Below, piece after piece: positions 15,331 through 36,657 of a stretch of DNA of 64,000 nt (its first letter is position 1; each line of letters starts with the position of its first letter). The position numbers were made by a program, and so were the translations under genes. The DNA comes from Watersipora subatra. Lineage: Eukaryota > Bryozoa > Gymnolaemata > Cheilostomatida > Watersiporidae. Location of the stretch: contig NC_088711.1 in NCBI RefSeq assembly GCF_963576615.1, positions 2,294,001 through 2,358,000 of the forward strand. Reading direction: 5' to 3'. The notes below the pieces were generated by a model. That model was not told the DNA's origin. It saw only the letters and a list, made by a program, of their open reading frames with translations, and searched no databases.

Positions 15331-16139
15331 TAACATTTGAAAAGCCTACAACAAAACCTCTCTGCGCATAATCGTGTGGTACAATTGGTATTAATCAATT
15401 TTTTATTAAGGCTATGCATACCTATATTTAGTGGTAATCTGCTCCATAACTACAACACAGTGCCTCTTCGCATCAAGTTCAAAGTGATCACACTCTTTAC
15501 TACAATTAGTGTTTACATTCAGCCATAAATATATAAACCTAGATTGGCCAATAGGGAAAAAGCCTGTCAGACTTAAATAGCATGACGTAACGTCATTGTA
15601 TTGTACCTCACGCTTGACTGCACTGTTGTTAACAATGAAGCTAATGAGGAGAATTTGACAAAATCCCATTTATTTTCACATAAAAACCTTCTTGGAAACA
15701 TAATCCAGTAAACTAAAACAATTCTGTGATAATATCTGATAACCACCTTAGATTAAAACTATAAAAGCTATGAATTGTTGCGAACAAATCATGAGCCATC
15801 AGGGCTTTATTTGCCACCCTCTCCTATCCCTATTCTCTCTTTTCCCCTTCTCCAAAGAAGAAGTGAGAAGCGGAAAGAGAGAAGGGAGAAAGGAGGGGGC
15901 AAAGAGCCCGCCCACTCACTCAAAGAGCCAGACCCTGGCTAGGTAAATAGACTAACATCATGTTGAACTAAACATGACTAAATATGATGAGCCTGTGAAG
16001 TTTTGATCTGATCAGGGAAATGGAATCAATGGCTTTCTTAGCTAGAGCTGGAACGAGACCAAGGAATGCAGGGTTGGACCAGACTCAGGGTCAGACCCAG
16101 AGCCGTATAGTTTCACAGAGTCCCGCGACTAACAGAAGC

Positions 16140-16180
16140 CATAGACCTATTAACTATACTAGACTGGGCAATCCAATGCA
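16140..16180. mobile_element. Truncated copy of the 92-bp CATAGACCTA MITE
   Basis: CATAGACCTATTAACTATAC and the following ACTAGACTGGGCAAT match one end of the short element at 26211-26302. The partner terminus is missing. It is present only in the left arm of the P element, so it inserted after the arms formed. Confidence 0.65.
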
Positions 16181-16652
16181 TCACGGCTCAGCATGGTGTG
16201 TCATCACTGTTTACATTGAAAGAATGACGGAGAGAGACAGCTTTGTTGCTACATGTAATTTGACATAACTACTAAAGTACACAAGATATTAGTTTAAAAT
16301 TTTGAATGCAAAGCTTATACACTATGCATTTCCTACCCTGCAAATTTGTAAAGATAAAGTTGAATATTTCATATGTAAAGTGCCAGTAAAAATGTATATT
16401 GATCTATTCAAAAAATATTGCCAAATTATCAATGTTGCCCTATGCTATGGACTAACCTGTCAGATAGTTAGGTGTACAAACTGATTTCAAATGCATACAC
16501 ACTGGTAAATGGTACACTGATCGCAGTCTGCCATGAATATAAATGTTGGGTCTTAGGTGTTATGCAAACAGCATCAGAAAATAGGTTTTTATGTTCACTT
16601 TGTTGCTTTGTTCACTTTGCATAGTCCAGGCCACAGTTTTAAGTAGGAAGCC

Positions 16653-18863
16653 ATGGAGAGTGGAGCAACTACCAGCACTGGAAATGATTCGAAGGTAAAT
16701 GTTACTCCAATTGTTTTCAAGTGTGGTTGTGAGAGGTACCTAGATATGAAGAGCAAGAAATCTTGCGGATTTTTCCGAGATAATCATGCAAATAATAGTT
16801 TTTTCCAAAATGTTTTCTTAAAGCTCATTGCTGGCACTAATAATTGAAAAGTTGCTTCGCACAAAGAGGTGCCAACCGCGAAGTAGACGAAGTGTTGCCC
16901 ATTTCATGAAGTTTTTCATCACCATGGCAGGTGGACATAGGCTAGTAAATGAGTATGGTGATGGCTCTGCTATATTTAGAAGTGTAGCTAAACCCCACGA
17001 AAAGATTTTTACTTTATGATGGTCTCATAAGAATGCAATTATTTACTGATTATTTTGCAGGACAGGAGTAACAATTTTTGCTGTGCATTTGGTTGTTCTA
17101 ATACTCCAGCAAAAGACAGTTAACTCAGTTGCCACACCTTTCCATCGGAAGAAAAACACCGAGACATATGTAACAAGCGGATAGACGCCGTGAAACGTAA
17201 GGACTGGATGCCCTCAAAATACTCTGCGCTTGGCAGTGATCTCCTGCAGATCTCCTGGTATGATGATGGCTGCCATACTAAAGCCTACTGCTGCACCAAG
17301 GGTATTTGATTCTCTGCCAAAATATTTACAACCAACTCAACCAAAGCATAGATGACTGTTATGCCAACCAACACTATCTAACTCATCCCCACCAGACCGA
17401 GATGAGCCAGTCCTGGAACCTTCACTTTGCTATGAAGAGCCAACAGCCGCCAAAGCAATCTGAAGAGATCATTCCCGACTCTCTACATAAGCGTACCTCG
17501 TACCTTGGCATAGGGAAATAAATTTTTCAAACATTTCGCGAGGCCAAGTATCTACTTCTGTACAAGCTTAGACAGAATCGTATAGAAACACTGTTCTCAA
17601 AGATTCGGGCCAAAGTAGGTTTCAACAATAATCCAGATGTCCGTAGCTTCAAATCTGCACTGAAAGCTCGACTAGTGAAAACAGACATCACACCTAGCAC
17701 GAGTGCTAACTGTCTTGATTGTGATAGCTCAGATGGCTCCTGCTCCCTACTTCTCTTATCTAAACGAAGAAAAATTCATGTAGAAAGTGACGATGACTTC
17801 CATGATTATTTGGAATCAAGCGAACGGCTGGAAATTGATCTGTGAAAATCTGTCTCGGACATAGCGGAATACATCGGTAGGTAAATACAACCAATTCCTC
17901 TAAATTTTCTACAACACAAGAGATCTGGCGCACATTGCAGCCTTGCTGCATGTGCTAAACTGCATGACTGCCCATATTGTGGTACATGATTTAGGTATGT
18001 ACATGTATTTTGGTATTAGCTACTTTCACTTGTTGTTAGTGTTTAGAACAGATATACAGGTAGCAGAGTGGCTTGAAATAATACTGCAGCAAATCAGTGA
18101 GATGTAAGTAACTTTATTTTACGGTTGATACATATACTTTTTATAATAATATTAGCATATGATATTTATTTAGCAGGTTATGTGGTACAGAGCTTAAAAC
18201 TCAATCCTTCGTTTTTTCGTGACGTCATTTTATCGTTGTCGGCCATCTTTATAGACAATTTTTTCGTTAGAAACCGGAAGCTTTTGCAATGATAATTTAA
18301 AAACGATGTTTTTGTTTGCAATTCTTTATTTTAGTATCAAAACAACACTTAAAAGTACTAATAAACCAAAGAAAAACGATCGTTTTCTACAAAAATGGCG
18401 GCTTTTCCGTGAACGAGCGCATGTGCAAACGACTTGATAACGTCAAAAAAACGATGGATACAACTACAATGACTGCACCAGCTTTATAGCCTCCTGTCTA
18501 GATTTACGCACCAGGGATGATTCGACACTAACCAGTGTAAAAGATAGAGGTGGTCTGTTTACACCTCATCCTGTCATCACAAAGATATGCCTAGGCTCAG
18601 AACAGATCATACGGCAGTGTGTCGACTTACAACGAATCACTGCAGACATACACAAGCTGGTGGCCACTAAGACTCTTTCATCGGTTTTACAAAGCAATTT
18701 GCATCAGGAATTTTCACGCTCAAGTCACAGCGCAGCGTTAGTTAAAACTATCACATCCATATATGTCAGAATTAGAATCCACCATGAGGCTACAAAGATA
18801 GCAGCTAACAAGAGTAATCTTAGATCAAAGCTCAGCCGACTGGTCATCTTTAGTCATGTGTAG
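16653..18863 (+). pseudogene. Decayed P-element transposase (THAP domain plus C-terminal part)
   Basis: A short first exon (16653-16694, then GTAAATG) can splice to 17061. There a THAP zinc finger begins: FCCAFGCSNTPAKDS, then after an in-frame TAA at 17121, CHTFPSEEKHR and AVKRKDWMPSKYSAL. The expected C-x-x-H-F near the end is lost (LGSDLL). A frameshift follows and then APRVFDSLPKYL, the AVPTIF-like end of a THAP domain. The RNase H-like catalytic core is missing. From about 17545 the C-terminal region appears: RQNRIETLFSKIRAKVGFNNNP, where GFNNNP is typical of P/THAP9 transposases. The last piece (about 18470-18863) has RGGLFTPHPVITKIC and ends at TAG. Stops, shifts and deletions make it non-functional. 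Confidence 0.8.
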
Positions 18864-19299
18864 CCTGTCACAATATGTCCAGAAAAGTGTACCATTTGTC
18901 ATTTGTTTTCTACGATTTTTCTGATGCTGTTTGCATAACACCTAAGACCCAACATTTATATTCATGACAGACTACGATCAGTGTACCATTTACCAGTGTG
19001 TATGCATTTGAAATCAGTTGTACACCTAGCTATCTGACATGTTAGCCTATAGCATAGGGCAACATTGATAATTTTGCAATATTTTTTGAATAGATCAATA
19101 TACATTTTTACTGGCACTTTACATATGAAATATTCAACTTTATCTTTACAAATTTGCAGGGTAGGAAATGCATAGTGTATAAGCTTTGCATCTAAAATTT
19201 TAAACTAATATCTTGTGTACTTTAGTAGTTATGTCAAATCACATGTAGCAACAAAGCTATCTCTGTCATTCTTTCAATGTAAACAATGATGACTTGATT

Positions 19300-19890
19300 G
19301 TTGTATCATGAACCATTTGAAAGAAAACAAAATTTCCTACAAAAAGCTGCTAATAACGTTTTTGTAAAAACGTAAAGTAAATGCAAAAAAGAGCGATATT
19401 GAGAGCGAGGTATGAATATTCCATTAGAGATCAGTATGTCGATCCGGTTTGTTTGGAATCCGATGTTTTTGTTTCCGGTTTTGGTCGCGAGACTTTTTAA
19501 AGCTATATGACTCTGCCAGTACAGAGCTGTATAACTTCACAGAGTTTCACTGCTAACGGATGCGCATATCGGAGCTCGCACGGCTCCAAACAAATAAGCC
19601 GGGCCCACTATTGTTTTATATAAGTTATAATGGAGAGGCCGCAACACTAACCAACAAAAATGACTCCCATTGGCAGTCGCTCTGAAATTGATTGTTGTAT
19701 TATACACCATTTGAAAAAAGACAAAATTCTCTACAAGAAACTACCAGTGATTTTTTGTAATAAAGTAAAGTAAATGCAAAAGAGTGAGATGTTGAGAGCG
19801 AGGTAAGAATATTCCATTAGAGATCAGTATGTCGATCGGGTTGGTTTGGAATCAAGCGTTTTTGTTTCCGGCTTTTGGTCACGGGACTCT
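19300..19890. repeat. Direct duplication of about 200 bp inside the P-element right arm
   Basis: The segment from about 19300 to 19500 (CATTTGAAAGAAAAC through GGTCGCGAGACT) recurs at about 19697-19890 with scattered substitutions, about 395 bp apart. Both contain GAATATTCCATTAGAGATCA. It enlarges the right inverted-repeat arm relative to the left. Confidence 0.8.
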
Positions 19891-20623
19891 GTGAAACTAT
19901 ACGACACTGGTCAGACCATACTCAGGGTCGGACCAGACTCAGGGTCAGCAATGAGGGCCAAGATCGGGTCGGACCAGGTCAGCACGATTTTTTATTCATT
20001 TAAGGTTAAGAGATAGTTCTATTACAGCCTAATGTTGTTACATCGATAAACTAAGATAAAAGAAACCGTTATAACACCAATCGTTATATTTTGTGGCTTG
20101 GTTTATAGATGCAATTTACAATTTATGGCTAGACATTGGTGGATCAATTGACATGTAGTCTTATTAGTCATGTAGGATATTTGCATGTGACTGCAATTAT
20201 ATGATTTCAAGGCTTTTCATGAAGGTCAGAGCATTGTAGGCATAAACAGTTTAATGTTAATTTTATAGCTATCTAAACCATTCTATCGTTTTGCCTTCAG
20301 TTATGTGTTAACTCTCAGACTGAACAACACACAATAAATACCTTATTTCAAGCACTACTCAATAAGTCTATACTATTTGCTATTCAATGGGTGATAGATT
20401 AATGGCATGATTTGGCTAGTGTTTTTATTACAGATTTTATTTTCAACTGCTATTATAATCAACAAGAGATTAGTTAAGAAATACTTTACAAATATAGAAA
20501 TAGATAACCCAGCATAGTGGAAAGCAAAAATCCATCACTTCTCTAAAACTTCTGGTATTAGTGAAAGAAACTAAAAATAAAATTAATTTGCTGGATTGAA
20601 GGTTCTTAGACGCTATTGTTTAA

Positions 20624-21477
20624 AAGTTGACTTGCAACAAAATTGACATTACAGTTATTTGGTATCAAAATATTCACTATGCCTTACTCTGTTGTGTTGT
20701 AGGTGCCAAATACGTGGAAATGTGATTACAAGCATTTAAAAGCTCAAAAACGAAAAGCCGCCGTAGATTGGAATCTCTTTATTTCGATGACGTAGTCATT
20801 ACAGTTTGGTGAATTGAAAAGCCAATAAAAAGCTAAATACATATAAAACTTATCATAGTACTAGTTTATGACAAACACTTCCGGTTTCACCGAAGACCCC
20901 GTATCAAATATAGATGCTCGCTACTTTACAGTTTTGTTTTGGCATTATTCAATCGTCAAGTCGTAATCTGATCACGTGACCCAATACTTCGAAAATAATT
21001 TTTGCAGCACTTTTCGATTATCACAGGTGACCAACAGGCTCGTCATGATTATCAGACAATGATATGTACTCCTTCGAGCTAAGGTTAAAAAGTTTAACGA
21101 TTTTTTACAGTAAGTTATAAGATATCAGTGCTAAAAGTGACAGCATTACAATGACGATAAAACAGACGCATAAAAACAATAGACATGGTTTTATTGAATG
21201 CGTGAAGTATATTTATGAAAATATTTTGACGAATGAGGTTGCATGAAAGTGTAAACAGAAACCATCCTGTAACAACTACTTCCCATTTGAGCCGTTTTGG
21301 AAAGAGAATCCAAACTACGGCGGTCTTGTGTGGCTGCAATTTTCTGTTCGGTTTTGAGCTTTTAAGAGCTTGTAATCACATTTCCACATATTTGGCACCT
21401 ACAACACAACAGAGTAAAACATGGTGAATCTTTTGATACCAAATAACTGTAATGTTAATTTTATTGCAAGTCAACCT
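20624..21477. mobile_element. TTAA-flanked foldback element, copy 1 (854 bp), inside the P element
   Basis: Bounded by TTAA at 20620-20623 and 21478-21481, with termini AAGTTGACTTGC and GCAAGTCAACCT. The inverted repeats continue inward for about 130 bp, with mismatches, through GTTATTTGGTATC and ACTCTGTTGTGTTGTAGGTG. TTAA duplication is used by piggyBac and Kolobok elements. No transposase frame is visible. Flanks join to the 20-bp palindrome GCTATTGTTTAAACAATAGC when the element is removed. Confidence 0.85.
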
Positions 21478-21479
21478 TT

Positions 21480-21789
21480 AAACAATAGCATGATGTTGAA
21501 CCTCAGCAACTTCTCCATGGTGACAATTAGTGCTAGCCTGGGAAAGTTTTTCACCAATCCAGCACTACTAAGCAACACTCTCGTCGCTTTCTCACTGTGG
21601 TTGCAAACCTCAATCACCACAGGCGAAGACAAAATCAAGTCATCACGATTCTTAACTGTGATTAGGGAATTAGTTGCTTGGTTTACATCACAGTTGGCAA
21701 CATCCACGATACTAGTGATACAATCACCACATTTCAGCTTTGGTGACCTAGCCAGCTGTAAAATAATCATTGTCTCATTTTTGACTTAA
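21480..21789 (-). pseudogene. Second P-type transposase fragment, antisense, in the right arm
   Basis: The minus strand is open over about 100 codons and reads CDVNQATNSLITVKN, then LILSSPVVIEVCNHSEKATR. This corresponds to the C-terminal GGL-x-PS-x-V-x-x-C-x-x-x-E-K region also seen near 18550 in the other transposase relic. It runs opposite to the main relic and is interrupted at its 3' side by the TTAA element. It is probably a fragment of another P-like copy nested here. Confidence 0.55.
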
Positions 21790-22293
21790 GACATACTTGC
21801 ATACTCATCATATTTAGTCATGTTTAGTTCAGCATGATATTAGTCTATTTACCTAGCCAGGGTCTGGCTCTTTGAGTGGGTGGGCTATTTGCCCCCCCCC
21901 TCTCCTTTCTCCCTTCTCTCTTTCCGCTTCTCACTTCTTCTTTGGAGAGGGGGAAAAGAGAGAATAGGGATAGGAGAGGGTGGCAAATAAAGCCCTGATG
22001 GCTCATGATTTGTTCGCAACAATTCATAGCTTTTATAGTTTTAATCTAAGGTGGTTATCAGATATTATCACAGAATTGCTTTAGTTTACTGGATTATGTT
22101 TCCAAGAAGGTTTTTATGTGAAAATAAATGGGATTTTGTCAAATTCTCCTCATTAGCTTCATTGCTAACAACAGTGCAGTCAAGCGTGAGGTACAATACA
22201 ATGACGTTACGTCATGCTATTTAAGTCTGACAAGGCAACTGATGGGAATAGCTATTATTGGCCAATCTAGGTTTATATATCTATGCATTCAGC

Positions 22294-22746: not shown

Positions 22747-25700
22747 CTAAGCCACACTCTTCAGTTCCTTTTTGCTAGGGAAGTACCAGTAGGTTCCCTT
22801 CACGCAAGAGGTCATGGTCATTATGAGATCGCTGTGGCCATCACCCCCAGCTCCAACCATGCGCTCCAACATGTATTCAAAGTTTTCCGGAGATGCTGCA
22901 TAGCCGATGAAAAACAGACCAGAGTCACCGCTGACTGTGCCCCATGGTTGTGATTGTCTAACAATCTCGTATGCCTTCTTCTGTTCAAATGCATTGCCTG
23001 TAAAAAAAAGGTTATCAGAGATGATTAAAGGTTGACTTGCAACAAAATTCACATTACAGTTATTTGGTATCATAAGATTCACCATGTTTTACTCTGTTGT
23101 GTTGTGGGTGCAAAATATATGGGAATGTGATTACAAGCTCTTAAAAGCTAAAAAACAAACAGTTAATCGCAGCCACACGAGACCGCCGTAGTTTGGATTC
23201 GCTTTCAAAAATGGCTCAAATGGGAAGTAGTTGTTACAGGATGGTTTCTGTTTACACATTCATGCAACCTCATTCGTCCAAATATTTTCACAAATATACT
23301 TCACACTTTCAATAAAACCATGTCTATTGTTCTTATGCGTCTGTTTTATTGTAATGCGTCATTGTAATGCTGTCACTTTTAGCACTGATGTCTTATAACT
23401 TACAGTAAAAAATCGTTAAACTTTTTAACCTTAGCTCGAAGGAGTACATATCATTGTCTGATAATCATGACGAGCCTGTTGGTTACCTGTGATAATCGAA
23501 GAGTGCTGCAAAAATTATTTGCGAAGTATTGGGTCGCGCGATCAAATTACGACTTGACGATTGAATAATGCCAAAACAAAACTGTAAAGTAGCGAGCATC
23601 TATATTTATTACGAGGACTTCGGTAAAACCCGAAGTGTTTGTCATAAACTAGTGCTACGATATGTTTTATAGTGAGCTTTTTATTGGCCTTTCAATACAC
23701 GTGAGAACATCATGTGACAAGACAATAACCAAACTGCAATGACAACGTCAGATAAATAAAGAGATTCCAATCTACGGCGGCTTTTCGTTTTTGAGCTTTT
23801 AAGGGCTTGTAATCACATTTCCACGTATTTGGCACCCACAACACAACAGAGTAAGACATAGTGAATATTTTGATACCAAATAACTAATGTGAATTTTATT
23901 GCAAGTCGACCTTTAAGTGTTAATGGCCTAGAGGATACTACATCATTCACGATTCTGGTACTTGTGCATGGATGCCATTACTAAAATAGACAAGAAATGA
24001 CTATAATGTGAGGCAGAATTACAAATTCAGATATTAAGATTGCAAATGTAAATGGTGTAATAAAACTGCATGTTCGCAGTACAGAAGAAAAGTCAAATGC
24101 AAAAACTGAATCTCTTTGGTAAAGCAACTATCAAATGCTTAATAAAGAAAAGTATTGGTGGGTTGTGTGACTGGGCCCTCGGTTAGATTTTTTGCCTGTC
24201 ACATCGCTGATTAAAGGTTGTATGGTTTTACTTTTACATTCGCTTTTAATTTTTAAAGTGAGTTAAATTTTAATAGATTGGTTTAGGAGATGACAATCAT
24301 TGAAAAGCAAATGTGTGATTATGCTTGAAATAATAATCCTATTTCACCAATCTTCTAGAGGAATGGGATCCACCAATCTTTAAAGGAATGGGATATATGA
24401 TACTGGAAGAATTCTAACAAATGTTGCAATAAGTAAATGTTCTCCCCGAAGTAGCTGCAAAAGTAGCGCATACAGCTAACAAATACGTGAATGCCTTCTC
24501 ACTTTGTTAAAATAGGTTTTATGGTAAATCATTGCGAAGAACAGGCTAGAAACTCTGCATCTACTCATGCCCTTCAGCAAATCCTAGTAACACCTTGAGC
24601 CGTCGACAAAACTTGGAAATCAAATTGATTGTATCGTGTTACTAGATTGTCATTGTCTCAAATCTATTAAAAAGAATTGTGCATATCTTATAAAGGTAGT
24701 GCTATCACATCCACTGCAGGGACAGATAATATTGTTATTAGTTGGAGTCATTTCCATTCGGACTAATTCTTCGATTGGTTGACATGAATATGCACGATTG
24801 ATGAATCATGGTTTTCATTCAATACCTTTAGATCTCATTTATGTCTACTAAAAAACAAGCTTGTGACAAATATGACAAAGACAGTTACAAAACACAAGGT
24901 TTCCATTTATTCAATGCTCGACATCAATATTTAGCATTAACATCTGATGCTAAAACTGTCAGTCAGTTTCCAATTTTAATATGTAATAATGGGGGTTCCA
25001 AAAAGTATTATTTTGTTTTCGTAATTCATTAGCTAGTCTTATCATGTAAAAATAACAACAGAAAACAAAAAGGCAATGGCTTTGAAGTTTTGCTGTCGGA
25101 TTTACAAAGCTGACATCAGTGGCCATGAGCTGACAAATCTTACATCGGTATTCTCAGCGAGACAGAAATTGAAAGTGATTCATCAAATTTGGACACTCTT
25201 GCTTTTAAATCAGATTGTTTTTTCACTAGTTGCTATTGTAAAGATGTGTCACTGAACCAAAACATAGAAGGAAAAATTGGACTCTCTACATACAGTCAAA
25301 CATGGATAACTCGAACTTCACGGGACCGAGCAAAAATGTTCGAGTTATCAGAGCGTTCAAGTTATCAGAGCACTGTCACAAGTCCATGTATTTATTTATT
25401 TATTAGCAGATACATGTACATATACAAACTATAATATAAATTGAAAGCATAAACTGCTTGTTTCAAATTACATGCTTCTAATGTAAAGTTTAAAACTTTT
25501 TTATCAAATGGTATAGAGATTTTTCTATCACTTGAAATTGGTTTGTTGTTTGAGGTGATGCTATTGCCAGGACGTTTTTTAGATTAAAACTAGCAAAGCT
25601 TGATCGTTGTTGAAATGCTCAGAAGAAAAGACATCTTTTTCTTTTGAGCGTTTTAACCAAGATCAATTTTGCCGATTTTTCTTGAAGTTTATGCGAAGGT

Positions 25701-28700
25701 TACCTCACTTTTCCTTGCTTCCGAAGGACCATCGCTAAGCGGATGTTTGTTAAAAATCAAATTTCACCAAACCTTTAGAAAAGTCGTTGACAAAAATATT
25801 TTGCCGATGGTGGTAATAACGACGCCTATAAATTACGAAAAGTCGAGGTTTACCTCTATGGCTTGGAACAAAGTGATTTTTTAAAGCGATAACAACAGTC
25901 TCAGTAGCCGTTGGGCAAAAAACTTTTCGAGTTAACAGAGCTGAGGTCGAGTTATCTAAAGCAATTTATCATTACGTGGGAACGGACCAAAGAAACCGTT
26001 CGAGTTAACCATGTGTTCGAGCTATCCGAGGGCGAGTTATCCATGTTTGACTGTATGTCTCTTTTAACAACATAGCTTTGTTAAACAGAACAGATCTTAA
26101 AACTACTTGCCAGAGTTTTCTATGTGAAAATGGGCAGCTGAAGAATCATATGGATATCAAATAAAGATATTCATTACCGAGTTCTACGATGTTCTAATGT
26201 TAGGTCTAACCATAGACCTATCAACTATACAAAGAATGTGGCTATTTATATAGGACACCGTGGCTTGGCATTGCCCAGTCTAGTATAGTTAATAGGTCTA
26301 TGGGTCTAACTGTCCATGTCGAGATGAACTAGAGAGTCAAAAGATATTAATAACGCACTTGATGATATCAGTAAAAGAGAAAGTCCCCAAGTTGAAGGTT
26401 CATCATAATTCAGTAATTATTAAGTTCTCTGTGATGCCCAAACTCAGTTAATTGTAAATGCTCTTTAGGGGAACAAGAATCCGTACCCTGTTAAGACTTA
26501 CCTCCAGTCATACGTGCCACATGTGATTGTATGTGTTTCCGGCTAAGTTCGATGCTGTCAGCCCGATCCCGTCCAACTGCAGTCTCCAGAGTCTTGGCTA
26601 CCAGAGACAAACAGTTGACACAAATGACAGCCAAATACATGTAGGTAAAGCATTTCATGAAGCAAGCTACTGGCACCAAAAAAATCACAAGCCAGTCCAT
26701 GCAAGATGGAAATGACAAGATTTCTTACTCGGAGTTGAGGCCAAAAACTTGTGATCATGAATCCACTTTTGTGTGATGACATAACTTCCTCCAGTACCTT
26801 TCTCGACAGCCACATTTTCCCTTGACTCGTCGTCAGCTGGATTCTCCGTGCCTGCAACAAACTGGCTGTAAGCACTTTGTAAACATGCTACAAACATAAC
26901 TATCCGAGGTGTCTAGCCCAAACATTCTCAAAATTACGTGAATAAAGCAACAAAACTAACCATTCTTTTTTAATGTAAGGTATTGATGATATCTTCGAAA
27001 AAGCCGTAGCCATAATGTCAAACCACACGACTTCTAACTAAATATCAGTGAATAAATTCTCACTGAATGCCTCACCACATACATGCAACTAAGACAAAGC
27101 TCTGCAGCATGTGTTGGAAAAATGAAGAATGCAATTGAACAGTGTACGACAAATAAATTTTGATTAGAATTTGGAAAGGCAGCTTAACAGAGAATTGAAC
27201 AAATGCATCCGGTCAAAGTGAATCCTCATTTGGTGCTGGTAAAGCCTATGAGTGACTTTTTTGCGAAAAAAAACCTTGAAAGATAAACCTATGTTGCAGT
27301 TGTCATAATTGCCAAAGTGATTACATAACTGCAAAGGTGACATACAGACAACTCTCACTGCAACACTGCAACTTGGTATAACTAAAATAGCTTCAAAGAA
27401 TGATATTGGCGTACCTAGATAGAAAAGTTAACACCAAAAAATATGTTGACTTGAAAAAAGATTACAAGTTGACTGAGGGCCTTGCAAGCATTGAAGAAAT
27501 CTGAAGAGGTGGCCACTTGTGAAAAAAAATTACTGGTGGTGACAGCTAGACAGGTTGGCTAATGTCTGGATGTATGGGGCTGATGTTGACATATATATGC
27601 ATAGCCATCAGGAAGGAGAGTATGACATAACTAGAATGTATAAATTTAGTATTATAATCTTGGCATTCAAGGCATTTGAACAGAGTTTATAGACAACAAA
27701 ATGAGAGGTAAGATGATTATTTTAATATTATGGGACAATTAAGGAAGTTCACAGACTAGCAACAGTTACAGACAAATTTCTTTGTTTCCTTGAAATATAA
27801 TACGACGCATTGCAGCCAACATAGGCTTTCCTTGCCAGCAGATACACTGTATTGCTTGGTCGGCATAAAACCTTACCCATACTTGAAAAGTTGTTGCTTA
27901 CCAAGCCAGCAATAACTATATAAGGAAACCACCAATGACCATATGAGGATACCAACAATGACCATATAAGAATACCAACAATGACCATATAAGAATACCA
28001 ACAATGACCATATACGGAGATCAGCAATCACCATATAACGAGACCTGTAATGAACAAATAAGGAAACTGGCAATGGCCATATAACGGGACCAATAATGGC
28101 CATATAACGGGACCAATAATGGCCATATAACGGGACCAATAATGGCCATATAACGGGACCAATAATGGCCATATAACGGGACCAATAATGGCCATATAAC
28201 GGGACCAACAATGGCCATATAACGGGACCAATAATGGCCATATAAAGATATCAGCAATGACCGTATGAGGAGACATGATACAATATTATAAATGAATAGT
28301 GCAAGGCTGACATAAGTGCATTCGGTCAGAGGGACAAAACCTTAAAGGAACAATAACTGTAATGTGAATTTTGTTACAAGTCAACCTTTTAAAGAACAGA
28401 GAATGTACTATGTTAACTGTAGCGCAAGTGTAGCTAGAGTCTAGCTGGTCAGTCAATAAGAACCAATCATCTTACCATCAATAAATCCTGATAAATCTTT
28501 TCCATTCTGGTAGACCCATCCGTATATGTCCTCAAATGATTGGACACTACCGGCTGGCAGCTGGGCCATTATTCGCTGAGCTAACTCGAACAGTTTACTC
28601 CTGCTGTTGCTCTTTGCGTGTATGAAGATATCTCCACCTGTATGGCATATATTATTACTTGTACAGAAAATAATATAACCTGTACAAAGTATATCATTAC

Positions 28701-33206: not shown

Positions 33207-34110
33207 ATGGCTGCTGGACTTGCTATACCTACTTTTGAGGCTGATGATGGGTTGGAATCTTATTTGGAAAAGTTGGACTATTATTTTGCCGTGGCTGGTA
33301 CCGAGGAGAATAAGAAGGTGCCTGTGCTTTTGATAGGACTGAGCGCCACACAATACCACACTCTCAAGGATTTTAATAGATAATTTCACCTGCAGTACCT
33401 CGTGAAACTGATCTTGATACGTTGAGGTCACATCTGACAACTCACTATGGTAGGACTAGAAAACAGAATTTGGAACGTACCAACTTTCGCTCTGTAGTTA
33501 AAAAGGATGGTGAATCTATTGCTGATTACCAGATTAAAGCAAGAAAAGCAGCCAGATATTGCAACTTTGGTGACAAGTTAGACGAAAACTTGATTGAACA
33601 ATTTATTTCAGGAGTGAATCACACAGCTCTTGCATACAAGTTAGTTAAGGCTGCTAATATTACAACTTTGACGGGTGCCATGGAGGTTGCTGGTACATTT
33701 CAGTTAATGGAGGGAGACAAGACAAGTTTGTCTACAAGACCTGCCAATATTGCTTAAGTTGGTCAACGTAGCTCAAGCAAGAACTACATATCTTCAAAAA
33801 CACCAACTCCTGCTAATAACTATGAAGTTTACATGTTTCCGGTGTTCTAAGACAGGTCATAAGGTAGATGATTTCAGCTGTCCTGCATTAGGTAAAACGT
33901 GCATGGCCTGTAAGAAGGAAGGACATTTTAAAGGATTGAAGTACTGCCGTAAGAAGAAACAGTCGGCAGCCGCTAGTGTAGTCGGTGAAAAACTGCATAC
34001 CAAGAACACTAGCACTACAACTGCTATTCATAACTTCAGTCACAAGTTCACAGTAAGAAATGCTAATAGCTATAAAACACCTAGGTGTAATGCTATTATA
34101 GGAGGTAAGA
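33207..34110 (+). pseudogene. Gypsy gag remnant with zinc knuckle
   Basis: ATG at 33207 opens a frame (GLESYLEKLDYYFAVAG) that stops near 33383. Gag then continues in a second frame from about 33390 (RSHLTTHYGRTRKQN, ESIADYQIKARKAARYC, LIEQFISGV) to a TAA near 33755. The nucleocapsid follows in a third frame at 33822-33940: CFRCSKTGHKVDDFSC and CMACKKEGHF, two CCHC-like knuckles. At least two shifts separate the parts. Confidence 0.85.
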
Positions 34111-36657
34111 CTTACTTTATTGATAGACTCTGGAGCAGTCGACAATATTATTGACAAATGCGGTTATAGTGAGTTGAAGAGCTTTGTTAAGTTGCAGTCT
34201 ACATCTAAACATTTGTATGCTTTTGGGCAAAATTCTTGTTTACCATTATTAGGACAGTTTAATGCTGTTATAACTGTCAATAAGGTTTCCGCTAATGCTA
34301 CATTCTCTGTTTTCGATGGTGATGCTTGTAACCTACTTAGTGCAGATACTGCTAGTAAGCTTAGGATTCTTAGGGTTAATTATGATATCTGTACTGTTAA
34401 AGTAGATGATAAGACTGATCTCGAAACTGTTGTAAGGATCAGATACCCAGAGTGTTTTAAGGGGGTGAGTGAATTGAAAGGTTTCCAAGTGAAACTACAT
34501 ATAGACCCTGAGGTTGACCCAGTGGCCCAGCCTGTTCGTATGTTGCCCTTCAGTTATTGTGGTCGAGTTGAGATGTCTCTAGATAGGTTGTTGGAAGATA
34601 TAGTGGAGCGGAACTCTATCAACACGAGATGTTGATAGAGTTAAATGGTGCCAAAGTCTTTTCAAAGATTGATTTGATTTTTCCAGTGCAAACTTGAACC
34701 AGGTTCACGAGAGATCACACTTTTGTTAGTCATATTGGTTTATTTCATAAGAAATGGTTGGGTATGGGATCTCTGCCGCCCCTGAAGTGTTTCAAAGTCT
34801 TTTCAAAGATTGATTTGATTTTTCCAGTGCGAACTTGAACCAGGTTTACGAGAGATCACAGCTTTTGTTAGTCATATTGGTTTATTTCGTGAGAAATGGT
34901 TGGGTATGGGATCTCTGCCGCCCCTGAAGTGTCTCAGTATACTATACAGACTATTCTTAATAGTCTTGAGGGTGTTTTGATTATGGCTGATGATATAATT
35001 GTCTTTAGGAAAAGCTCTGAAAAGCATAGAGAGCGTTTAGGGCTTGTTTTGTCTCGTTTGTCACAATGCGGTCTCACTTTGAATGGTTCCAAATGTAGCT
35101 TTGGGTTGTCATCTATCAAGTTCATAGGTCGCATGTGATCTATTGAAGGTGTTTCTCCCGATCTAGCTAAGGTTGATTTTATATTGTCTGCTCGCGGGCT
35201 AGAAACTGACAGAGTTGAGAAGATTTCTAGGTTTAGTACAGTTTGTTGGGAGATATGTTAAAGACTTGGCCACTGCTGCAGCTTCTTTGTGATAGCTAAA
35301 TAAGAAGTCTACTGCTTTCTGCTGGTCTAAAGTGCATCAGAGTGCATTTGATAAGGTCAAGCAGCTTATGAGTGTTACTCACACGTTCACTTATTATGGG
35401 AGATGCTCCAACTATTGTAGTTGCTGAAGCCAGTCCTGCTGATTTAGATTGCGTTCCGTATCTAATTCAAAGTGGCATTTCTAGAGTAATAGCTTATGGC
35501 CAACGATGTTTATCTGATGTAGAGTCTCAATATTCTCAGATAGAACGAGAGACTAAGTCTAATGTGGGCATGTGAGCATTTCAAGATGTACTTGCTTGGT
35601 AGAAAGTTTCAATTATTTACTGATCATAAAACTAACTCGAAACCAACTCCTAGATTGGAACGCTGAAGTTTGAGGTTACAGGCTTTTGATTTTGTTTTGC
35701 AGTATAAGCTATAACATTTCAGATCCTCTGTCTAGATTGAGTGTGAATGAGAATGATGTTGTAGAGCCTGTGGTAGATGGTGCTTACATTTGCTCAATTG
35801 CAGAACTCGCTATTCCATGCGCTATGGAGTGGTCAGATATTCATGAGGCTGCCAAGTCTTGCCCCGAGACTAAGCTGATATATGAAGCTTTTCAGTCAGG
35901 TGAACGGAAATGTTGTTCTGCTATCACAAAATTACTAGGAATGAGCTGAGTACATGTGATGGTGTAATTCTTAGAGTTTATAGAATTTTCATACTAGGTT
36001 GTGTCAACAGACATTGCATTTAGCACATGAGGGTCATCAAGGTATTATGACGACCAAAAGAAGGCTATGTTTCAAGGTTTGGTGGCCTGGCATAGATAGA
36101 GAGGCTGAAGTTTCATGTCGTCAATTTTTGCCCTGTCAATTGGTCAGTAATAGTGATCCCCAGTTCCTATCACTCTTACCAAATTGCCCGATGGCCCTTG
36201 GAAGTTCTGTAGTCTAGATTCATTGGATCCTCTTCCTGATGGTCGTTCTGTTGTAGTCATTGTTGATTATTTTAGCAGCTTGTCCGAGTTTAAGTTTTTG
36301 AAGAGTACTAAAGCAAAGAAAATTGTCTCATTTCTGGAAGAAGTTTGTGCTTTATACGACTACCCAGAAATTCTGAGGTCTGACCATGGCACACAATTTA
36401 GTTCTCATGAATTACAAGGTTATCTGAGTAATTGTGAAATTAGATGGTCTCAAGCTAATGAAGAAGTGGAGAGGACAAATCACACCATATTAAAGGTCTT
36501 CAAGATTGCCAACTCTGAAGGTCAAGATTTTCGAAGAGTGTTGAATAAGTTTTGCGTCTTCTTCAAGAGCACACCCCACACACCTACAGGTATGACTCCA
36601 TTTGCTTTAATTTTTTGGCCGGAAGATGAGAACCAAATTGCCAATGATGTCGACTGA
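34105..36657 (+). pseudogene. Gypsy pol remnant (PR-RT-RH-IN)
   Basis: Protease: IDSGAVDNIID at about 34120. Reverse transcriptase: DPVAQPVRMLPF, GISAAPEVSQ and the catalytic box as IMADDIIVF (34980-35010). RNase H: VAEASPADLDCV, AYGQRCLSDVESQYSQIERE (35420-35550). Integrase: zinc part HLAHEGHQGIMTTKRR with VWWPGI (36015-36090) and the core with VVVIVDYFS, RSDHGTQFSS and EEVERTNHTI (36250-36500). Domain order is that of Ty3/Gypsy. A 141-bp tandem duplication (34652-34792 and 34793-34933) lies within RT, and frames change at least five times. Confidence 0.85.

Follow-up and report, generated by a model that had tools for sequence, protein, structure and literature searches.

A 64,000-nucleotide stretch of the genome of the bryozoan Watersipora subatra (contig NC_088711.1, positions 2,294,001 to 2,358,000 of the forward strand; hereafter the window) contains a feature which had been read in an initial annotation as one P-superfamily transposon with terminal inverted repeats (TIRs) of about 1 kb. 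This feature is a nest of ordinary transposons and the giant TIR does not exist; the apparent 1-kb inverted repeat is an illusion arising from one transposon inside another. Two P families of this nest, here called outer and inner, and a third P family found elsewhere in the genome have ends of the same build: a terminal repeat of 30-33 bp is followed by two main spacer lengths 12 bp apart, usually one of each per element. The shared 12-base difference between the ends suggests a common rule for the pairing of transposon ends.

A nest of transposons at the locus

The 784-Mb assembly was searched with the supposed long arm (15524-16577) as query, and 40 of 2329 candidates were scored. Apart from the window, all 39 long arm matches stop at base 569-571 of the query. 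Twenty copies of the outer family were fetched with their flanks, and 20/20 pass directly from the left part into the sequence at window position 19923; left and right part overlap by 26 bp at this empty site (24 bp in one copy), which stems from a local 17-bp tandem repeat. Since all 20 copies are contiguous across the site, 16098-19909 (3.8 kb) is an insertion in the window copy, and the continuous arm of about 1.05 kb proposed initially does not stand. The concentric inverted arms themselves are present, 15524-15991 matching 21804-22285 (93% with gaps, 451/486) and 16200-16581 matching 18917-19293 (96%), but they belong to two nested elements and not to one. A further inverted match of 39-47 bp near 16089-16135 and 19872-19917 is the end of a hAT-like element.

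The mirror order of the arms and the exact target site duplication (TSD) at the outer ends are also what a single P element with TIRs of about 1.05 kb would leave, if its right arm had been split by later insertions. Such an element is very improbable, because among the scored candidates both arm parts occur together nowhere but in the window, every fetched copy has the empty site, and the inner family is found alone with its own ends and TSDs. Nesting, separate TSDs and empty sites are seen directly at these loci, and we hold the nest and the anatomy of the locus as read here with high confidence. Separate inverted insertions had been named beforehand as the outcome that speaks against one element; they are what the locus contains, but the 8-bp match at its ends is a genuine TSD and no coincidence.

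The exact 8-bp sequence CATTCAGC lies just outside both ends of the outer element, and many other copies share its terminus and have 8-bp TSDs (exact in 15/20 fetched loci, 7/8 in 3 more), as is characteristic of the P superfamily. Assignment to this superfamily is also supported by the PF21789 domain in the transposase remnant of the inner element. Uninterrupted, the outer element (15524-22285 in the window) measures about 2.77 kb with TIRs of about 470 bp, and its copy number is high. Both ends are present in 18/20 fetched copies, 14 of these 18 having a length of 2.72-2.80 kb; the full right end is missing in 2. When seven copies were mapped on the window, they covered 15524-16094, 19923-20148, 20378-20613 and 20620-22285. 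Two open reading frames (ORFs) of the outer interior were scanned and gave no THAP domain, only a weak match to THAP9_C; the minus-strand remnant at 21471-21785 resembles the C-terminal ORF of an inner-family copy (BLASTP E 4e-9). By the best explanation, the outer element is a non-autonomous member of the P superfamily.

Some further structures were seen in or around outer copies. A piece of 229 bp in the window copy (20149-20377) is missing from 7/7 mapped copies, reflecting either an insertion here or a deletion there. An element of about 880 bp (20612-21489) with 146-bp inverted repeats (20612-20757 / 21344-21489) lies within the interior and occurs a second time in the window, alone, at 23022-23917 (about 89% alike). 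Copy L013 is surrounded by an uncharacterised inverted repeat (L013:246-3418), whose arms are offset by 24 bp and whose flanks are palindromic 8-mers. Rfam at gathering thresholds gave no match in the window.

The inner P element (16140-19293) starts with the terminus CATAGACCTATTAAC and lies inside a hAT-like miniature inverted-repeat transposable element (MITE). Its left arm has a 73-bp deletion at 16199/16200, which takes out the anchor region present in other copies. Eleven loci of this family were examined. Nine of them have both ends, a length of 3,078-3,087 bp, TIRs of about 500 bp and TSDs of the 8-bp type (7 exact, 1 at 7/8, 1 shifted by one base); the remaining two loci are that of the window and L048, whose stretch contains no 3′ end. 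With about 0.47-0.51 kb for each nested element, the TIRs are, as annotated, much longer than those of Drosophila P (31 bp). The decayed transposase was correctly placed between the inner arms, but it is part of the inner element and not of the one flanked by CATTCAGC. PF21789 identifies it as a split RNase H transposase of the P/TNP type; the N-terminal RNase H half gave no match in the scanned ORFs of the window copies. The THAP region of the window remnant (about 17050-17309) was located via copy L037, the window pieces themselves having no Pfam match, and in L037 the domain stays below the cut-off (PF05485, E 5.6e-4, 21.1 vs 23.9 bits). Three sister copies and the window copy have the same interrupted transposase layout in common, and the amplified inner family thus appears to be non-autonomous. 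Copy L041, with 5.2 kb between its arms, was considered as a full-length inner element and rejected: its long ORFs lie between two inner-family pieces and are presumably hAT-like, judged by eye and without a family search.

The insert 16098-19909 has CAG...CTG ends and is flanked by GTCAGACC; from its CAG terminus and its 8-bp TSD we take it to be hAT-like. The 17-bp tandem repeat at its insertion site (19909-19948) has more units in the window than in outer copy L014. As to the order of events, a non-autonomous P-superfamily element with TIRs of about 470 bp inserted into the CATTCAGC site. This outer element later received, at GTCAGACC, a hAT-like MITE that has a second copy in tandem, and a copy of the second, apparently non-autonomous P family inserted into the MITE and lost its right end afterwards; a small MITE-like insert sits within the inner P element. 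The stack is a warning that concentric inverted repeats seen by eye can pass for giant TIRs.

Two spacer lengths 12 bp apart in three P families

In an alignment of the two TIRs of the outer element, 30 bases with a single mismatch come first; after them the left side has 12 bp and the right side 24 bp, before both continue with GTCAGACTTAAAT and the rest of the arm. This 12/24 arrangement was found in 17/18 outer copies measured (17 fetched copies and the window; L011, L013 and L016 were left out). An alignment of 36 outer arms contains 19 near-fixed differences between left and right, all of them within the spacer block; a column was called near-fixed if the majorities of the two sides differ and each is held by at least 13 of 16 copies, with the window and L025 omitted. 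Two ancient lineages of left and right arms were considered and rejected, since a tree grouped the arms by side (except L025) but only the spacer block is near-fixed.

In 9/9 inner-family copies the spacer behind the 33-bp terminal repeat measures 23 bp on the 5′ side and 11 bp on the 3′ side. The third P family was recognised as a 3,084-bp insert in outer copy L027 (L027:2378-5461) with the exact TSD GGTAGCAC and TIRs of about 312 bp; the possibility that this 3.1-kb insert marks an autonomous outer element was rejected, as it is a P element with its own TSD. Behind the 31-bp terminal repeat, its spacers measure 21 and 9 bp in this one copy.

Genome-wide exact pattern matches with a free spacer of 4-34 bp yielded 557 outer, 203 inner and 773 third-family ends, and the reversed-pattern controls for all three gave 0 matches. 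The spacer and pair lists cover part of the genome, namely contigs C1-C2 for the outer, C1-C5 for the inner and C1 for the third family. Among the first 100 of 557 outer ends listed the spacers measure 12 (43), 24 (52), 11 (4) and 23 bp (1), among the first 100 of 203 inner ends 11 (54), 23 (45) and 15 bp (1), and among the first 100 of 773 third-family ends 9 (45), 21 (52), 19 (2) and 23 bp (1). Where two ends face each other at under 10 kb, their spacers are exactly 12 bp apart in 16/20 outer, 25/27 inner and 33/35 third-family pairs, or 74/82 overall, among the matches listed. Furthermore, 39 sequences (319 kb in all) were scanned for TSDs and TIRs together, with 66 matches. In the 22 with P-type termini the spacer offset is 12 in all but L017, where a further 5-bp deletion beyond the anchor makes it 17; the remaining matches include the hAT-like element and the inverted repeat of L013 (offset 24) and otherwise lie mostly within arms or in AT repeats that carry palindromic 8-mers. 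A fourth P family was not recognised among the 39 sequences.

Counted from the ends, the sequence behind the spacers begins at position 55/43 in the outer, 57/45 in the inner and 53/41 in the third family. It contains ACTTAA in the outer and inner families, with ACATAA at the inner 3′ end, and we take ACTTAA to resemble the Drosophila transposase site. The 12-bp difference is conserved between the families and its polarity is not. A search of the literature by title and start of the abstract returned no account of this kind of spacing except for Drosophila P.

Arm copying, excision-like remnants and the meaning of the unequal ends

Locus L031 of the inner family carries one and the same 48-bp palindrome in both arms (721-768 and 1902-1949), at corresponding points and flanked by an identical 8-bp target. 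At up to 2 mismatches the 48-bp sequence occurs at these two places of the genome only, which indicates that one arm was copied onto the other by gene conversion. The palindrome itself consists of 8 bp flanked by 20 bp from each of the inner termini. In L041, a structure of 48 bp resembles the outer termini and has the TSD ACTATACT, and the window holds a 92-bp inner-family remnant at 26211-26302, which is probably an excision footprint or an extreme internal deletion (Table 1).

A search pattern for such structures, in which two 15-bp termini face each other across 0-30 bp, matched at 217 inner-family and 9 third-family places, with 0 in the controls. The first 50 of the 217 inner places and the 9 third-family places are 34-59 bp long and none measures 30-33 bp, although the pattern allows these lengths; their lack among the first 50 of 217 has a chance of 0.001 under a flat distribution. 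Excision would cut about 17 nt inside each end and leave remnants of at least 34 bp, and from the Drosophila cut 17 bp inside the end a minimum of 34 bp (2 x 17) is expected. Against a footprint origin it counts that remnants with fewer than 15 intact bases at an end are invisible to the pattern, and that the pattern may count small mobile elements as well, flanks having been seen for four remnants, one of them of 92 bp. The 34-59-bp structures could instead be very small MITEs that move by themselves, in keeping with the exact 8-bp duplications at the four remnants and with the 217 inner-type places, which are many beside 203 exact inner ends. We consider these MITEs rather unlikely: the first 50 of 217 places come in 19 different lengths, none of 30-33 bp, which fits a staggered cut followed by repair, and the inner-type remnants seen (L031 and window 26211) have retained 20 bp of terminus.

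The third-family element in L027 has a THAP domain above the cut-off (PF05485, E 6.6e-11). As to coding relatives, scoring of 150 out of 342 candidates in the assembly gave 175 PF21787 matches. At 4 loci the match lies in an open frame of 421 aa at 2.1 kb from third-family ends, and these frames are candidate transposase partners; the ends there have the match length of the long type, which repeats the polarity of the L027 copy, in which the long spacer lies 3′ of the transposase, the reverse of inner and outer. An outer short-spacer end (C1:12446738) is preceded by a PF21787 match at 2.6 kb distance (C1:12443744), a further candidate partner, with PF21789 at C1:12445397, and about 1 kb before an inner short-spacer end (C1:2956008) PF21789 lies in an open 245-aa frame (C1:2955027). 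The best-scoring third-family arms are 99-100% identical over about 315 bp, a sign of recent movement, and the third family has probably been active recently.

Spacer asymmetry may act as an end-pairing rule, for which we see the case as close to evenly balanced. The sequence behind the spacer would be the binding site of the THAP domain, by analogy with Drosophila P, and transposase supplied in trans by related coding copies would join one short-spacer and one long-spacer end. Long arms would be copied onto each other by gene conversion, and elements that keep unequal spacers would go on moving. A wider proposal combines two parts: a 12/23-like rule would be general in the P superfamily (transposition requiring one short and one long end, a fixed 12 bp apart at any absolute length), the difference being kept by selection in spite of conversion between the arms, and the genome would preserve the traces of hundreds of P excisions, with the 17-nt stagger recorded in their lengths. 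Taken jointly, this could in our judgement equally well be right or wrong.

Several observations weigh against an end-pairing rule. Copy L025 has 12/12 spacers together with a 7/8 TSD, and 8/82 facing pairs differ by something other than 12 bp (11/24 twice, 12/12, 24/24, 11/11 twice, 9/19 and 19/21). The third-family anchor is without ACTTAA, and the inner 3′ end has ACATAA instead. Polarity varies, the long spacer being 5′ in the inner family (in the outer too, by the orientation of its remnant) and 3′ in the third. Copies in one family are related, so that equal spacers are not independent events, and the three families belong to one superfamily. Transposases were read in part, and in the coding copy beside an outer end on C1 a stop interrupts the PF21789 match.

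The kinship of copies within each family, a possible common ancestor of the three families that already had the difference, and the occurrence of pairs with equal spacers could all be explained if the 12-bp difference were merely inherited from the family founders, without a role in transposition. This is a tenable explanation, yet one we lean against. Spacers and arms differ between the families, and still the usual difference is 12 each time. The outer arm has no near-fixed differences elsewhere and arm-to-arm copying occurs (one locus), so a spacer difference that was not needed would be expected to be lost. Drosophila P, with the same 9/21, likewise speaks against simple inheritance. Families with near-identical young arms, such as the third, are material for testing a pairing rule.

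Table 1 Features of the transposon nest and of one related remnant in the window (TSD, target site duplication; TIR, terminal inverted repeat; MITE, miniature inverted-repeat transposable element)
Feature	Position	Strand	Basis or remark
TSD of outer element, left copy, CATTCAGC	15516..15523		identical to 22286-22293
Outer family left TIR, 468 bp	15524..15991	+	self-alignment
Left TIR, 30-bp terminal repeat	15524-15553		
Left TIR, short 12-bp spacer	15554-15565		
Left TIR, anchor GTCAGACTTAAAT	15566-15578		followed by common arm
Outer family interior, left of nested insertion	15992..16089	+	matches other copies to base 571 of arm query
TSD GTCAGACC of hAT-like insert, left copy	16090..16097		recovered de novo in TSD and TIR scan
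hAT-like MITE, left piece, CAGAGCCGTATAG terminus, split by inner P element	16098..16139	+	assigned from CAG terminus and 8-bp TSD
Inner P left (5′) arm, CATAGACCTATTAAC terminus, 23-bp spacer	16140..16581	+	comparison with other copies
Inner family decayed transposase remnant	16656..18863	+	THAP region about 17050-17309, RNase H C-terminal piece, C-terminal region 18441-18863
ORF with TNP-like RNase H C-terminal domain	17522..17845	+	PF21789 E 3.6e-9
MITE-like insert, about 253-256 bp, inside inner element	18205..18460		absent from four copies compared
Inner P right (3′) arm	18917..19293	-	terminal ~114 bp with spacer and terminus missing
hAT-like MITE copy 1, remaining part	19294..19515	+	
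hAT-like MITE, second tandem copy, CAGAGCTG...CACTG	19522..19909	+	
TSD GTCAGACC, right copy	19910..19917		also recovered in TSD and TIR scan
Outer family interior	19918..21803	+	19923-20148, 20378-20613, 20620-21803 match other copies (7 copies mapped)
Outer family transposase C-terminus remnant	21471..21785	-	THAP9_C E 0.048, weak, below cut-off
Outer family right TIR, 482 bp	21804..22285	-	self-alignment
Right TIR, anchor GTCAGACTTAAAT	22219-22231		
Right TIR, long 24-bp spacer	22232-22255		
Right TIR, 30-bp terminal repeat	22256-22285		
TSD of outer element, right copy, CATTCAGC	22286..22293		identical to left copy
Footprint-like inner-family remnant, 92 bp, exact 8-bp TSD GGTCTAAC	26211..26302		20 bp of one end + 72 bp of short-spacer end

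Elsewhere in the window (33380-36654), ORFs like those of a decayed retroelement were noticed by eye, with a gag-like zinc knuckle and protease- and integrase-like frames.

Comparison with known P-type transposons

Kolobok targets TTAA, unlike the families described here with their varied 8-bp TSDs. The Drosophila P element has the ends CAT...ATG. According to the passages of PMC7776569, its 31-bp TIRs are separated by 9 and 21 bp from a 10-bp transposase site, an arrangement likened there to the 12/23 signals of V(D)J recombination, and its transposase cuts 17 bp inside the end; THAP domains are described in the same passages as restricted to animals. The corresponding part of PMC3688188 places the THAP sites at bp 53-63 (5′) and 41-51 (3′), and the two sources, as far as these passages go, conflict over which end carries the longer spacer. 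On this basis Drosophila P is like the families found here in its 8-bp TSD, its terminal repeat of about 31 bp and its unequal spacers, and the third family even has 31 bp with 9/21. Spacers 12 bp apart after a repeat of about 31 bp, a Drosophila P feature not known as a requirement of the superfamily, are present in W. subatra as well. Unlike Drosophila P, the inverted repeats here extend over about 310-510 bp in all, and two families have 11/23 and 12/24.

Long TIRs had been put forward as unusual for P elements in the initial annotation. They are real, at about 470-510 bp and about 312 bp in the third family, but already known from the P superfamily, since Galileo of Drosophila has TIRs of up to about 1.2 kb in the passages of PMC3573991 and PMC3688188. 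As described there, Galileo also resembles the present families in its many non-autonomous copies and in a proposed exchange of arms by recombination. It differs in its 7-bp TSD, against 8 bp here, and in the internal tandem repeats in the TIRs of some subfamilies; an end-specific spacer is not described in these passages.

Zebrafish Pdre2 and THAP9 share the 8-bp TSD, and the Pdre2 terminus CATACCTGTCAAC resembles CATAGACCTATTAAC (PMC10983969, in part). Unlike the families here, Pdre2 has a 13-bp TIR and a distant 12-bp subterminal repeat, with no long TIR described in that part of the source. In the passages cited above, the likeness of 9/21 spacing to V(D)J recombination is built on one element, Drosophila P. 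Three further families with their own spacers and arms make the pairing idea comparative and testable, and they raise the question whether P-type transposases, independently of RAG, use unequal spacing as a code for the pairing of ends.

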